Assembly (NCBI GenBank): GCA_944381105.1 | Contig: CALWJU010000033.1 | Coordinates: forward strand, 1 to 56,134 | DNA length: 56,134 nucleotides | Reading direction: 5' to 3' | Source of the DNA: an uncultured Clostridia bacterium | Lineage (GTDB): Bacteria; Bacillota; Clostridia; Christensenellales; UBA1242 | Shown here: positions 41 through 54,518 of the stretch, one piece after another | Numbering within the stretch: the first letter of the stretch is position 1 | Layout of the letters: each line of letters starts with the position of its first letter | Notes under the pieces: model-generated | Told to the model about the DNA's origin: nothing | What the model saw: only the letters and a program-made list of their open reading frames with translations | Database searches by the model: none | Made by a program: the position numbers and the translations under genes

Positions 41-123
41 ACTATGTGATGAACACAATTTATTGTGTTTTTGCGTTTAGCAAAATTAAAATTTAACTTG
101 CTTAAATTTTAACATCACATAGT
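41..123 (-). repeat. 83-bp cloverleaf-like palindromic element, copy 1
   Basis: The ends ACTATGTGATG and CATCACATAGT are perfect inverted repeats of 11 bp. Read on the minus strand, the inside holds three consecutive hairpins: an AT-rich one (TTAAAATTTAA loop TTAAATTTTAA), TTTTGC loop GCAAAA, and ACACAAT loop ATTGTGT. The same architecture recurs at 13890, 33739, 54035 and 54168 with different stem sequences. In the minus reading direction it follows the HAD gene, so it may form the 3' end of that transcript. Confidence 0.85.
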
Positions 124-13889: not shown

Positions 13890-13972
13890 ACTTTGTGATG
13901 ATAAAATTTTATATCAATAAAATTTTATTAAATTCTTGCGAATTTGCGTGCAAAGCACGCTCATCACAAAGT
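13890..13972 (+). repeat. 83-bp cloverleaf-like palindromic element, copy 2
   Basis: Outer arms ACTTTGTGATG and CATCACAAAGT pair perfectly. The inside folds as TAAAATTTTAT/ATAAAATTTTA (11 bp), AAATTC-TTGC-GAATTT (6 bp) and GCGTG/CACGC (5 bp). Compared with copy 1 the outer stem has changed on both arms together (A-T to T-A at the fourth base). It lies at the 3' side of glmS, in the same direction. Confidence 0.88.
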
Positions 13973-31901: not shown

Positions 31902-32202
31902 CCCTGTTGTTGGTAGTGAACAGGGCGGTGTTCGTCCTGTGCTAATTATTCAGAATGACATCGGCAATAAGTATTCGCCGACTGTAATAGTATCTGCGAT
32001 AACAAGTCAACTCGGCAAAGCCAAACTGCCGACGCATATAGAACTGCCAGCCGAGAAATACAACTTGCCTAAAAATTCGGTTGCCTTGCTTGAACAGATA
32101 AGGACACTTGATAAACGCAGATTGCAAGAAAAGATAACCACTCTCTCGCCAGAGAAGATGCGAGAGGTCAATAAGGCATTATTGATATCGTTAGGATTTT
32201 AG
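31858..32202 (+). CDS. mazF: MazF-type mRNA interferase
   Basis: The 114-residue protein is a full PemK/MazF domain: [41 protein letters not shown] and [13 protein letters not shown]. The Arg in GVRP and the Thr in AITS correspond to the catalytic residues of endoribonuclease toxins of Bacillota. The GG in SEQGG and the length are typical. AGGAGAAC precedes ATG. It follows the 88-residue protein with overlap. Its stop is followed without a gap by a duplicated 317-bp structured unit whose first hairpin may act as terminator. Confidence 0.92.
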
Positions 32203-32519
32203 TTGGTGGGGCAACAAAACATTTTAAAATAAAATTGTAAGTTTTATGCTTACAATTTTATTTTAACTCCTTACGGAGAACACGGGCACGGCTTTTTTTT
32301 GGGGAGACACCAAATTCATTTATCACCCCAAAAGTGATAAAACACTTTCGGGGAACCCCGATGACGCTGGCACGACTTGCGAGGCAAGTCTAACAGCGAT
32401 GAACCGCACACTGCGGAATATAATTCCTTGTATGCTTTTGGTTTCTCTCCCAAGCCTCTTCCACCTGCTCGAAAAATTCCGCTGGACATTTTTCTTCGCA
32501 ACAAGGACCCGCAAGGGGT
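32203..32519 (-). repeat. 317-bp hairpin-rich unit, copy 1 (direct tandem duplication)
   Basis: Begins on the base after the mazF stop. It contains an 18-bp perfect stem (32224-32241 with 32249-32266), TTTATCAC/GTGATAAA, a GGGTTCCC module at 32326, GACTTGC/GCAAGTC near 32380 and CCGCA/TGCGG near 32405. Copy 2 starts 326 bases later with only about six substitutions and one indel. Reading frames on the minus strand exist but the several frames are equally open, so I do not call a gene; it looks like a structured RNA or DNA element. Confidence 0.8.
32326..32359 (-). repeat. GGGTTCCC-stem-GGG module, copy 2
   Basis: Minus strand: GGGGTTCCCC, then GAAAGTG / CACTTTT, then GGGG. It is the same layout as at 14363 with different stem bases. 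Confidence 0.65.
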
Positions 32520-32528
32520 AGATTTATA

Positions 32529-32844
32529 TTGGCAGGGCAACAAAACATTTTAAAATAAAATTGTAAGTTTTATGCTTACAATTTTATTTTAACTCCTTAC
32601 GGAGAACACGGGCACGGCTTATTTTGGGGAGACACCAAATTAATTTATCACCCCAAAAGTGATAAAACACTTTCGGGGAACCCCGATGACGCTGGCACGA
32701 CTTGCAAGGCAAATCTAACAGCGATGAACCGCATACTGCGGAATATAATTCCTTGTATGCTTTTGGTTTCTCTCCCAAGCCTCTTCCATCTGCTCGAAAA
32801 ATTCCGCTGGACATTTTTCTTCGCAACAAGGACCCGCAAGGGGT
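32529..32844 (-). repeat. 317-bp hairpin-rich unit, copy 2
   Basis: Second copy of the unit at 32203, nearly identical. Differences include the CCGCA loop (TAC for CAC), one base in GCAAGTC (now GCAAATC, which weakens that hairpin) and a one-base deletion in a T-run. The near identity means a recent duplication or conversion between copies. Confidence 0.85.
32651..32684 (-). repeat. GGGTTCCC-stem-GGG module, copy 3
   Basis: The same sequence as the module at 32326, in the second copy of the tandem unit. Confidence 0.65.
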
Positions 32845-32892
32845 GTGATTTTAAATTATAAAGACACTAAAATTTTGGTTTTCCTCCCATCT

Positions 32893-32923
32893 GGGTTCCC
32901 TTGAAATTGACTAATTTCAAGGG
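32893..32923 (+). repeat. GGGTTCCC-stem-GGG module, copy 4
   Basis: GGGTTCCC runs into an 11-bp perfect stem CCCTTGAAATT / AATTTCAAGGG with loop GACT. Orientation is opposite to the other three copies and the stem sequence differs at nearly all inner positions while pairing is kept. Confidence 0.7.
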
Positions 32924-32961
32924 TGGTAACTCCCTTTCCACCTCTTATTAAAAAACAGGCT

Positions 32962-33546
32962 TTAAGCCTGCATTTTGTTGATTGTTTTATAGATATCTTT
33001 CCAGCCATTTGTAAGTATTTTATTTTTTCCCTTGCATTTTTTATTTGCAGGGGTTTTGTATATTATTACAGGGACAACCTTTGAAAAATTTTCAATGTTG
33101 TTTGCATCGTCCTCAATCATGACCTCAACCTTTTCTTCTTTTATAACCTCTATCTTGTTATAGGTAAAATATATCGTGTCATAGTAAATTTTGTTTTTAC
33201 TAAGCCACTTTTTTACCGCTTCCCGCATCTTCGCTCCCTTTTCATTATCGAGATAAGAAAAAGACCTTGATGTAATTATCACAATTCTGTGCCCATCATT
33301 ATGTAGTTTTTGTATGTAGTAATTTGCATGATTGTTCATTTTGACAACTTTTGCATAGTGAAGTGAATATTTTTCCCAAAAATCGTCCTCAACAACACTT
33401 GAAACATTAAATTGTTCGTGAAATTTTTCTTTACTCTTATTAAATTTAAAGGAAATATTATTTTCTTTAAGGTATGACTTGAAATGTCGCCATGTGTAAT
33501 TGTTAAGATTACAAAGCACTCCGTCAATATCAACACCAATAACCAT
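32962..33546 (-). CDS. HAD-superfamily hydrolase, nucleotidase-like
   Basis: The 194-residue protein starts with motif I VIGVDIDGVLCNLN, has IVIITSRSFS as motif II and VEVMIEDDANN as the acidic motif IV. A cap region with Lys and Tyr lies between (about 15-90). The set fits a 5'-nucleotidase-like or YqfW-like HAD phosphatase acting on an unknown phosphate ester. AAGGAGA precedes the ATG. It lies 20 bases downstream of tRNA-Trp on the same strand, so it may share that transcript. Confidence 0.75.
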   Translation of the reverse strand: MVIGVDIDGVLCNLNNYTWRHFKSYLKENNISFKFNKSKEKFHEQFNVSSVVEDDFWEKYSLHYAKVVKMNNHANYYIQKLHNDGHRIVIITSRSFSYLDNEKGAKMREAVKKWLSKNKIYYDTIYFTYNKIEVIKEEKVEVMIEDDANNIENFSKVVPVIIYKTPANKKCKGKNKILTNGWKDIYKTINKMQA

Positions 33547-33565
33547 AATATCTCCTTAAAAAAAA

Positions 33566-33639
33566 TGGCAGGGGTGGTAGGAGTCGAACCCACCTCAGGA
33601 GTTTTGGAGACTCTTATTCTACCGATGAACTACACCCCT
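33566..33639 (-). tRNA. tRNA-Trp (anticodon CCA)
   Basis: On the minus strand acceptor AGGGGTG/CACCCCT, anticodon loop CTCCAAA, T arm GGGTTCGACTCC and encoded GCCA make a complete tRNA. It is the only one in its neighbourhood and lies upstream of the HAD gene. Confidence 0.93.
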
Positions 33640-33738
33640 ATATTGTTGCGTTTAAAAACTTAAACACACTATTAATAATACAATAAAATATAAAAATAGT
33701 CAATAAAATTTAAAAAATTAATTTAAAATGAATAAATT

Positions 33739-33821
33739 ACTATGTGATGTTAAAATTTTATTAGCATAAAATTTTAATAAATTCTTGCGAATTTGTGCGT
33801 TTTACGCACTCATCACATAGT
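33739..33821 (+). repeat. 83-bp cloverleaf-like palindromic element, copy 3
   Basis: ACTATGTGATG/CATCACATAGT outside; inside TTAAAATTTTAT/ATAAAATTTTAA, ATTC-TTGC-GAAT and GTGCGT/ACGCAC. The third hairpin differs from copy 2 on both arms. It is in a 426-base spacer with no gene. Confidence 0.88.
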
Positions 33822-34065
33822 ATCTTTCATAACTAAACTTTAAAATTGCCCTAAAAGTCGCCTAGCGAGTATTGCAACCAAAGACCGCAAAACATTTTTA
33901 TACATAAATTACTAAAAAAATTGGTTTTACTATAATCTTGCTCTTGCAATGCAAAAATTTTGCCAAAATATTGTCAAAAACGTGAGATTTGTCAAAAAAT
34001 GTGTAAAATTAGTCGGAGTAAATTTTGACAATAATGTGTAAATTTTTTAAAATTTAATAAATCAT
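33822..34065. other. AT-rich spacer, nothing recognised
   Basis: Between the cloverleaf element and the end of the 428-residue gene I see repeated AAAATTTTG-like words but no gene, tRNA or clear terminator. Confidence 0.4.
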
Positions 34066-35352
34066 TTATAAAAACAGCGAGATTATATCCTTAGTGCAGT
34101 CGACAACATCTTTAAGTTTTTTGTTGTCCTCAATGAGACGTTGATTGTAACATATTTGCATTTTGAAACAGTCGTTTTTAATTTGATTTATCGTACGGGA
34201 CTTTCTATACGAGTCAAACACCGAATTGATTGAGAAATGTGAGAGGTTATGTCTATTTAAAATGTTGATTATCTGATACAATTTTTCTTTGTTGTACTCG
34301 TCTGGCAAAAATAGCGTAACGTCTTGCACACGAGCAATATTTAAAATATGAATTTCAAGGAATAACCTTGTCGAAGGGGAGAGAAGGTTTTTATAGAGTG
34401 CATTTTTATAGGCATTAGTTTTTGTATTAAAGTAATCCTCCTCGTTATCTTTACTCTTGTAAATGATAGAGAAGCCGAACTCGTTATTCAATGCCTTACA
34501 AATGCTTCCGCTCATGCTCTCGCTTTCCTTTTCCTTGCCTTCAAACATACCTTTTTTGGCGTGCGGTGCAGAGAGAATAATTTCTGGCAAACCATTAATA
34601 TACTCAAAATCATTGATACTTTGAGAGGAAGAGAATTTTTTATCATCCTCACGCAATTTTTTGATGTCAATATGTCTTGCTCTTACCACCTCACGTTGAC
34701 GGAGAGTCTGACAAAATAGGTGCAGAGCGTTTACTATTTTTACAATATTTTTGCCATTTTGCAAGAATTTCTCATTAATTTCAATTTTTAATGCCTTTTT
34801 ATGCAGATTTTCGCATATCCACGTAGCAAGAGAACCATCTTTTTGTGAACTATTAAAATTAATATTGTTTATTCTATAATTATTCAAAGCAAAAACCATT
34901 TCTTGAAGAATTTCTGTGTCATCAAAAAGGGTCTTGCCCAGGTTCGAACAAAGGCTTACAGCGGTTAAGTCGGCAAAATGTTTGCAGTCAAGTTCTATCA
35001 TAATGATAGGCTTATAACTTTGGCTAAATGAGGCAAGCCTATCACAAAAACTCTCTTTTTTCTTGTTGCTCTTTTTATCCTCTTCTTCATTTTTGCTATT
35101 GTTTCCGCTTAAAGCCTCAATTTGTTTGAGTTTTACCTCGTTTTTTGATACATTGCAAAGCATGGTATAACCATAATATTTGTTAAGTAACCTAGCGATT
35201 AAATGAGATTGTCCCTTATCGCTAAGAGAGTTCTTCACACAAAAAATGATTTCGGTATCTCCCTCATTGTAAACAAAAGGTTTGTCCCTTTTGACTTTAA
35301 AATAGAAGTCCATTTCTTTATCAATTTGATTTTTTGAAAGTTCTTTTAACAT
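34066..35352 (-). CDS. Protein resembling tandem N-formylglutamate amidohydrolase-like domains
   Basis: I recognise this 428-residue protein only weakly. The C-terminal half has GLPEIILSAPHAKKG, then SGSICKAL and LFLEIHILN, a spacing like the Zn-binding PH...R...DxH of the FGase fold, though the last Asp is Glu. The N-terminal half shows a poorer echo (IIMIELDCKH). A Lys/Glu-rich linker lies at about residue 95. There is no membrane segment. It may be an inactive relative. The divergent fic gene has its start 128 bases away, so shared control is possible. AGGTGATG precedes the ATG. Confidence 0.4.
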   Translation of the reverse strand: MLKELSKNQIDKEMDFYFKVKRDKPFVYNEGDTEIIFCVKNSLSDKGQSHLIARLLNKYYGYTMLCNVSKNEVKLKQIEALSGNNSKNEEEDKKSNKKKESFCDRLASFSQSYKPIIMIELDCKHFADLTAVSLCSNLGKTLFDDTEILQEMVFALNNYRINNINFNSSQKDGSLATWICENLHKKALKIEINEKFLQNGKNIVKIVNALHLFCQTLRQREVVRARHIDIKKLREDDKKFSSSQSINDFEYINGLPEIILSAPHAKKGMFEGKEKESESMSGSICKALNNEFGFSIIYKSKDNEEDYFNTKTNAYKNALYKNLLSPSTRLFLEIHILNIARVQDVTLFLPDEYNKEKLYQIINILNRHNLSHFSINSVFDSYRKSRTINQIKNDCFKMQICYNQRLIEDNKKLKDVVDCTKDIISLFL

Positions 35353-53932: not shown

Positions 53933-54034
53933 AAGCAAACTGCGAAGCACTTAAAACAAATGAAACACACCAATAATAGACAAGCAAACTGCGAAGCACT
54001 TAAAACAAATGAAACACATCAATAATAAACAAGC
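53933..54034. repeat. 49-bp direct repeats
   Basis: The unit AAGCAAACTGCGAAGCACTT followed by AAAACAAATGAAACACA is present twice (53933, 53982) with a period of 49. A third start at 54031 merges into cloverleaf copy 4. Copies are almost identical. No gene is seen. Confidence 0.8.
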
Positions 54035-54117
54035 AAACTGTGATGATAAAATTTTATGACTATAAAATTTTATTAAATTCTTGCGAATTTGCGTGATTTA
54101 TCACGCCATCACAGTTT
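54035..54117 (+). repeat. 83-bp cloverleaf-like palindromic element, copy 4
   Basis: AAACTGTGATG and CATCACAGTTT outside; inside TAAAATTTTAT/ATAAAATTTTA, AAATTC-TTGC-GAATTT, and GCGTGA/TCACGC. The outer stem begins AAAC where copy 2 has ACTT, changed on both arms. It lies downstream of rlmH in the same direction. Confidence 0.88.
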
Positions 54118-54165
54118 GGTCTTTGTTTAGTGTTTTTAATAAAACCTTGTTGTTGGATTTTTTAC

Positions 54166-54250
54166 AAAAACTGTGATGTTAAAATTTAACTCAGTTAAAT
54201 TTTAAATTTGCTAACGCAAAAGCACAATAAATTGTGCCATCACAGTTTTT
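54166..54250 (+). repeat. Cloverleaf-like palindromic element, copy 5
   Basis: Outer arms AAAAACTGTGATG / CATCACAGTTTTT. Inside TTAAAATTTAA/TTAAATTTTAA, TTTGC-TAAC-GCAAA, GCACAAT/ATTGTGC. It is the same internal version as copy 1 (which is read from the minus strand) and lies 48 bases after copy 4. Confidence 0.88.
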
Positions 54251-54253
54251 TTA

Positions 54254-54400
54254 CAAGGTGTCGGTCTCAATCTTGAAAGATTTCGACCTCCGAATTAAAG
54301 AGATACAAGGTGTCGGTCTCAATCTTGAAAGATTTCGACCTCCGAATTAAAAAGATACAAGGTGTCGGTCTCAATCTTGAAAGATTTCGACCTCCGTTTT
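54254..54400. repeat. 52-bp tandem repeats (three copies)
   Basis: Unit ACAAGGTGTCGGTCTCAATC followed by TTGAAAGATTTCGACCTCCG starts at 54254, 54306 and 54358. Each unit holds the imperfect hairpin GTCGGTCTC-AATCTT-GA-AAGATT-TCGAC. Units 1 and 2 differ by one base. No CRISPR-type unique spacers are present. Confidence 0.85.
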
Positions 54401-54434
54401 TAAATTAAGTTGATTAAGGCATTTTGTGGTTTGA

Positions 54435-54518
54435 TTATATCAAATTAAAGAATAGGACACAAAAAAGACAGCCTAAGAATAACGAAAGAATAATAAAAAT
54501 TGAAAGATTCCTCTGCAT
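54435..54518 (-). CDS. Possible 27-residue hydrophobic peptide
   Basis: ATG at 54518 opens a 27-codon frame reading MQRNLSIFIILSLFLGCLFC and ending VLFFNLI. It is one hydrophobic helix with a short basic start and two Cys. GAGGTG stands close before the ATG and TATAAT overlaps it. Direct repeats lie just downstream. Size, hydrophobicity and repeats recall type I toxins, but this is inference; it may be random. Confidence 0.35.
   Translation of the reverse strand: MQRNLSIFIILSLFLGCLFCVLFFNLI

Follow-up and report, generated by a model that had tools for sequence, protein, structure and literature searches.

A unit of about 137 letters, half of which can be folded into a four-armed cloverleaf, occurs in dozens of copies in an uncultured gut bacterium of the Clostridia and in its relatives. 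The copies form a family with the potential to fold, their stems covary, and the unit is present or absent as a block without duplication of the target. Mobility in the recent past is likely. We favor, at a probability of roughly 55%, the idea that the unit (cloverleaf, linker and a second hairpin called S) is a non-autonomous mobile element that is moved as folded single-stranded DNA by an enzyme acting in trans.

The window is the whole stretch of DNA that was analyzed, 56,134 nucleotides in length. The five cloverleaf copies of the original prediction were all read directly in it at the positions given there (table), and all five fold according to the predicted plan of an outer stem and three hairpins, H1 to H3 (z between –7.4 and –11.0, with none of 200 shuffles equally good). 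For the copy at 13890 the folds cover both strands in DNA and RNA form; for the other four they cover DNA and RNA on one strand and DNA on the opposite strand. There are two subtypes. Subtype A has H1 arms AAAATTTTA, an H2 of AAATTC-TNNC-GAATTT and a variable H3. Subtype B has an H1 of TAAAATTTAA, an H2 of TTTTGC-TAAAC-GCAAAA and an H3 that is mostly ACACAA-TAAA-TTGTGT.

Cloverleaf copies and S hairpins in the window
Feature	Position	Strand	Remarks
Cloverleaf, subtype B	41..123	–	read directly; folds; model R2, 110.7 bits
S1 hairpin after copy 41–123, truncated by contig start	1..31	–	sequence same as S1 elsewhere
Cloverleaf, subtype A	13890..13972	+	read directly; folds; model R1, 100.7 bits
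Arms of copy 13890	outer stem 13890–13900 with 13962–13972; H1 13902–13927; H2 13930–13945; H3 13946–13960		
Cloverleaf, subtype A	33739..33821	+	read directly; folds
Cloverleaf, subtype A, outer stem variant AAACTG/CAGTTT	54035..54117	+	read directly; folds
Cloverleaf, subtype B, outer stem variant AAACTG/CAGTTT	54166..54250	+	read directly; folds
Three tandem S3 hairpins, period 52 bases	54261..54397 (54261–54293, 54313–54345, 54365–54397)	+	

No S hairpin was recognized after the copy at 13890 or at the copy at 33739, and the copy at 54035 has no S match of its own. The S1 at the contig start was read directly, its cut end having kept it off the scripted S list. The tandem S3 hairpins are S-like (TCGGTCTCA...TTCGACCTCCGA), and from their sequence we read S3 as probably related to S1. 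The locus in genome G008 that corresponds to 33739 gave no match to that cloverleaf copy. Two other features of the window are a stretch of about 325 bases that is tandemly repeated with 96% identity (32195–32844) and two NT5C genes (PF06941; 153–662 and 32962–33546), each near a cloverleaf copy. The contig itself starts within a unit (1–123). Several other contigs of the host genome (G000) start or end in the same way, so the repeats break assembly.

A search for the pattern TGTGATG-N50-75-CATCACA found 37 places in the 1,176,640-base host genome (43 contigs) and none with the reversed control. The covariance model search that had been proposed as a check yielded many further copies, extending the list to 63 places in the host-genome stretches examined (about 60 copies); two of these places are truncated where a contig ends, no fewer than three are degenerate, and a weak match at C13:5077 (E 0.07) was excluded. 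Near-identical units occur at distant loci within one genome. Scanning named genomes gave at least 110 stretches with the repeat, all from metagenome-assembled genomes. The carriers listed are mostly uncultured Clostridia bacterium, with some Christensenellaceae or Firmicutes and one Candidatus Caccovivens faecavium. The host is probably an uncultured relative of Clostridium similar to Candidatus Caccovivens; it is tied to these carriers by the repeats they share and by relatives with 100% matches to their records. Within the genus, model R2 matches 20 of 61 genomes; of 40 others it matches 2, weakly (E 0.07). Across the order (E 0.001) it matches 9 of 396 genomes, in one family only and in 4 of 142 genera.

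The exact pattern had no match in viral contigs, and a 291-base query had none when compared with phage (50,697 records) and plasmids (72,556 records); on these results a phage, plasmid or viral origin was rejected. At the gathering score, Rfam recognized only a tmRNA and three tRNAs in the window and left the cloverleaf unmatched, and loose Rfam scans of two loci and of window positions 53950–54450 gave nothing close to that score. We found no family of such form in the literature in PubMed Central. Together, these searches support the earlier statement that no family of this kind has been described.

After many cloverleaf copies there is a linker (TATGTAAAAC and similar) and then the hairpin S, which lies between CATCAG and TTCCGATAATATA. 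The full unit begins with TAAACTATG and ends with TTCCGATAATA, and comprises the 83-bp cloverleaf, the short linker and S (about 137 bp). The host-genome DNA examined holds 22 S1 and 9 S2 matches. S also covaries. The 135 units over all loci examined, a count that includes at least two false matches, contain 59 distinct S sequences, of which 33 have a two-base test position that is fully paired, 12 have it less than fully paired and 14 do not match the pattern. The paired forms were CC/GG (15), TC/GA (12), TT/AA (5) and AC/GT (1). S is present in 27 of 81 genomes of the genus. When the R2 and S models were run on 61 genomes, both matched in 17, a weak R2 match occurred alone in three (G033, G036 and G045), S occurred alone in one (G017) and neither matched in 40. 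S thus occurs in genomes with the cloverleaf, which we count in favor of a joint mobile unit.

Empty sites in related strains, another check named with the original prediction, were found between genomes G059 and G032, which are mostly 92–98% identical in the stretches compared and 70–87% identical in some. With partial sampling of 46 element clusters, both flanks were present in the other genome's stretches for 9, one flank for 16 and neither for 21. Three sites are filled in one genome and empty in the other (L245 vs. L253, L237 vs. L252 and L249 vs. L246; the second pair was located by one flank and then aligned). Removal of 136, 137 and 138 bp, cloverleaf and S as one block, restores the empty sequence at these sites with no net loss, and the exact unit ends are defined to within a few A/T bases. 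The 83-bp element first described is therefore the cloverleaf itself, and is only part of the mobile unit where S follows. The predicted lack of a target-site duplication holds at the three alignable pairs, which are too few to exclude 1–2 bases in A/T runs. The remaining shared sites are filled in both genomes. Comparison of G000 with more distant species gave no base-by-base alignment of empty sites. Insertion sites are scattered and A+T-rich, with a TAATA-like bias just 5' of units that the three empty targets match only in part. At L235/L251, from the same two genomes, a B cloverleaf sits inside a broken A unit. This suggests that gain of a cloverleaf need not bring an S with it, and counts against the block model.

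Units also form arrays, with 34 of the 135 directly preceded by another unit. The tandem junction, GATAATA-TAAAC, consists of two unit ends joined head to tail without an extra base. Arrays mix subtypes A and B, so that duplication alone is insufficient as an explanation. Array length is also altered by recombination between units (L030 vs. L150). The pairs L104/L172 and L030/L150 seemed alike at first; their array lengths differ. At three locus pairs (L060/L043, L058/L137 and L063/L074) a stretch of 94–98% identity ends at a unit. We do not claim units as borders of gene transfer, because metagenome assembly also breaks off or misjoins contigs at repeats of this kind. The L060/L043 stretch (L060:1641–3047 and L043:46–1447, from G000 and G029) is 1.4 kb long and 97% identical up to the cloverleaf unit where it stops; it holds a small ferritin-like ORF, so named by eye, and a tRNA. 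Elsewhere (window 32400–34800) G029 matches little besides a tRNA and the repeat.

Pairing is kept despite changes in sequence, as originally proposed, and the covariation is strong. In alignment A4 (99 rows, 90 distinct) 95.9% of stem cells pair and double changes occur at 19 of 32 pairs (207 cells). Alignment A3, with a structure that lacks H3 (97 rows, 90 distinct), gave 96.0% and double changes at 17 of 30 pairs (97 cells). Slid partners pair at 32–47% and none of 500 shuffles reached any of five measures in A3 or A4, both of which share part of their copies and are biased toward the covariance models to which they were fitted. In an independent count at fixed outer-stem positions the Watson-Crick fraction of distinct arm pairs was 0.725, compared with 0.550 (sd 0.025) when arms were re-dealt within subtype. 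For H3, where hairpins were placed by maximizing pairing, the values were 0.944 and 0.544. Our parse penalizes every mismatch; it recovered no cloverleaf from 26 of 161 distinct copies, which were dropped. Given such degenerate copies, constraint probably does not act on every resident copy.

The further claim that the fold itself is selected was right about the covariation and is too strong as it stands, given the degenerate copies and an alternative in mutation. Passages of PMC8794818 describe how template switching in replication can create compensatory stem changes. Since such switching can also keep stems perfect, selection on the fold is not proven. Covariation would then arise by copying one stem arm to the other in an ordinary mobile or inert repeat, and the fold need not serve any purpose. 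Stems that differ as a whole, at several pairs and with wobble intermediates scarce, fit this explanation. We nevertheless consider it unlikely. Loop inversions are absent from the 38 distinct loops of H1 and the 27 of H2, with a few reverse-complement loop pairs in H3; GTGATG/CATCAC and GNNA stay constant, and the degenerate copies do lose pairing.

Wobble pairs and loops were compared to judge whether folding takes place in DNA or in RNA. Of the 3,077 pairs parsed in H1 to H3, 4 are G.T and 10 are A.C; adding the outer stem raises these numbers to 21 and 40. Plus-strand RNA should favor G.T, and the parse shows no such wobble excess. U-G cells do stand out in the model-fitted alignments (69 at A3 pair 51–73 and 12 at A4 pair 54–61), and we read these as misplaced pairs that are located elsewhere in the parse. 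Among even-length hairpins of subtype A (12 odd-length H1 and 6 odd-length H2 were excluded), the bottom-strand loop has the form GNNA in 51 of 64 H1 and 65 of 70 H2, or in 28 of 40 and 18 of 23 distinct hairpins, respectively; the copies are related and these counts are not independent. The third base of the GNNA loops is a pyrimidine in 49 of 51 H1 and 39 of 65 H2, and 64 of the 65 H2 loops have a c-g closing pair. Subtype B does not generally follow GNNA (H1 0/59, H2 12/59, H3 1/59), nor does H3 of subtype A (20/76). A title cited in PMC8373063 names d(cGNNAg) as a stable DNA tetraloop. Subtype A loops thus keep the DNA motif GNNA more widely than the RNA motif GNRA, which supports folded DNA without proving it.

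The copies had been said to lie mostly 3' of genes, and this was not borne out. Out of 63 copies, 15 lie where a contig or stretch ends and 2 overlap small ORFs, which leaves 46 intergenic copies. Using simple ORF calls made in this analysis, 28 intergenic copies lie between codirectional, 11 between convergent and 7 between divergent genes, where the shares of intergenic bases are 54, 28 and 18%. By cluster, 45 are on the strand of the local gene majority and 44 against it (two mixed clusters were dropped); for single genomes the numbers with and against are 27 and 16 in G000 (p 0.13), 11 and 18 in G059, and 7 and 10 in G032. Copies follow intergenic space without overall strand bias, and a terminator or 3'-end element was rejected for lack of bias in position or strand. 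With gene strand as a proxy there is also no sign of a lagging-strand preference, which counts against a single-strand model.

These data bear on a functional RNA, such as an sRNA, terminator or 3'-end stabilizer, that spread and was kept for a fold useful to the host. RNA folds of the copies are strong, as is the covariation. Even so, we think such a role quite unlikely given the absence of bias in position or strand around genes, the few G.T pairs in the parse, loops that follow GNNA beyond GNRA, the lack of an Rfam family, the empty sites in close genomes and the degenerate copies.

A still less probable explanation is that units are cassettes moved by a tyrosine recombinase, in an Xer/dif- or integron-like manner, on the head-to-tail junction. 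The absence of duplication, the head-to-tail arrays and a PF00589 match in 80 of 81 genomes of the genus are consistent with this, and the junction agrees at 21 of 28 bases with the dif of Bacillus subtilis (sequence confirmed in PMC3025954), which may differ from that of the host. By contrast, eight shuffled dif sequences gave 6–30 matches of at least 20 bases in the same DNA in which real dif gave 54, many of these being unit junctions. With up to 3 mismatches the junction occurred only in G000, G032 and G059 and was missing from all 32 genomes selected for lack of an R2 match. A dif-like pattern had 6 three-mismatch matches, spread over 5 of 21 genomes, and the reversed control gave a similar level. 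The scattered, A+T-rich insertion sites also argue against it, and beyond the 21-base agreement these comparisons gave an Xer/dif junction no support. In G000 (L076:3013–4493) a tyrosine recombinase gene (344 aa), of a type widespread in the genus, has an A and a B unit immediately upstream. At L293, L294 and L296 a palindromic motif like TATGGTGTA.TATGCA lies near the recombinase gene and is possibly a binding or recombination site.

Under the mobile-element reading that we prefer, the unit would be excised and inserted as folded single-stranded DNA, the folded strand most likely being the complement of the plus strand. An enzyme supplied in trans would recognize the shape of the fold together with a small number of constant bases, which may be GTGATG/CATCAC, the GNNA loops and CTCA/TTCG in S. 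With TAATA at unit ends and TAATA-like bases 5' of unit starts, a resident unit may be a good target, and such self-targeting would explain the mixed A–B arrays. The nearest working model would be the single-strand transposition of IS200/IS605 and REP elements. It is a doubtful step further to propose a previously undescribed class of single-strand DNA transposition, with a bipartite unit, bottom-strand shape recognition, its own 3' target building arrays and a non-Y1 enzyme.

Two candidate enzymes were rejected. The Y1 transposase (PF01797), seen in 8 of the 81 genomes of the genus, was not found as a resident mobilizer in G000, G029, G037 or G059. Reverse transcriptase (PF00078) is in 19 of 81, including G000 and G059 and not the copy-rich G008, G029, G032 and G037, so that its presence does not track copy number. 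In G041 (L222:1471–2148) about 130 bp separate the end of a gene for an IS200-like transposase (151 aa, PF01797) from the cloverleaf copy that follows; this is the sole one of 11 Y1 loci with a strong copy.

IS200/IS605 transposons insert without target duplication, and integron attC sites are read by the shape of a folded bottom strand in arrays that grow by adjacent insertion. The proposed bottom-strand recognition and the adjacent units here are like attC, whereas GTTRRRY/RYYYAAC boxes were not seen by inspection of the unit consensus and the unit carries no gene. G000 has five PF00589 matches. PMC6006769 describes subterminal folds and a single-stranded circular intermediate for IS200/IS605, our model for mechanism; the present unit differs in having no enzyme gene and a multi-branched fold.

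The element resembles known structured mobile repeats such as REP/BIME with TnpA-REP (RAYT), in a new variant form. Shared traits, from the sections of PMC8266576 and PMC3733652 that cover them, are intergenic hairpins, tandem mosaics and subfamilies with alternative complementary stem bases, and REP/BIME are thought there to move as folded single-stranded DNA. Our unit has a cloverleaf and S rather than a hairpin of 20–50 nt, is joined head to tail rather than in inverted pairs, and has no resident Y1 gene in G000 or G059. G-T pairs, reported as frequent in REP families in part of PMC3733652, are few in our parse. Of the REP/RAYT tag GTAG (or CGTC), no GTAG was seen in end profiles of 98 and 91 units (TAATATAAACTA and TAATATAAA). 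The bcr1–bcr18 repeats of the Bacillus cereus group are alike by description, being interspersed and MITE-like with conserved secondary structure in some (PMC3446304, in part). Bacterial MITEs (RUP, ERIC and Correia/NEMIS), as outlined in portions of PMC2229807, are likewise 100–200 bp, A+T-rich, non-coding, intergenic and without their own enzyme. The three sites without duplication set our unit apart from them, and the 137-bp unit has no terminal inverted repeats of the DDE-type MITE form, only the cloverleaf half having 11-bp inverted arms.

These results warn that covariation by itself is no proof of a functional RNA, and comparing wobble pairs and GNNA/GNRA loops offers an inexpensive way to ask from sequence whether DNA or RNA folds. 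The repeats also mark points where metagenome contigs of this genus often end. To our knowledge, few small mobile DNAs are thought to be recognized by fold more than by sequence. With a multi-branched fold, clean empty sites and many covarying stem pairs, this family makes the question of shape versus sequence directly testable.
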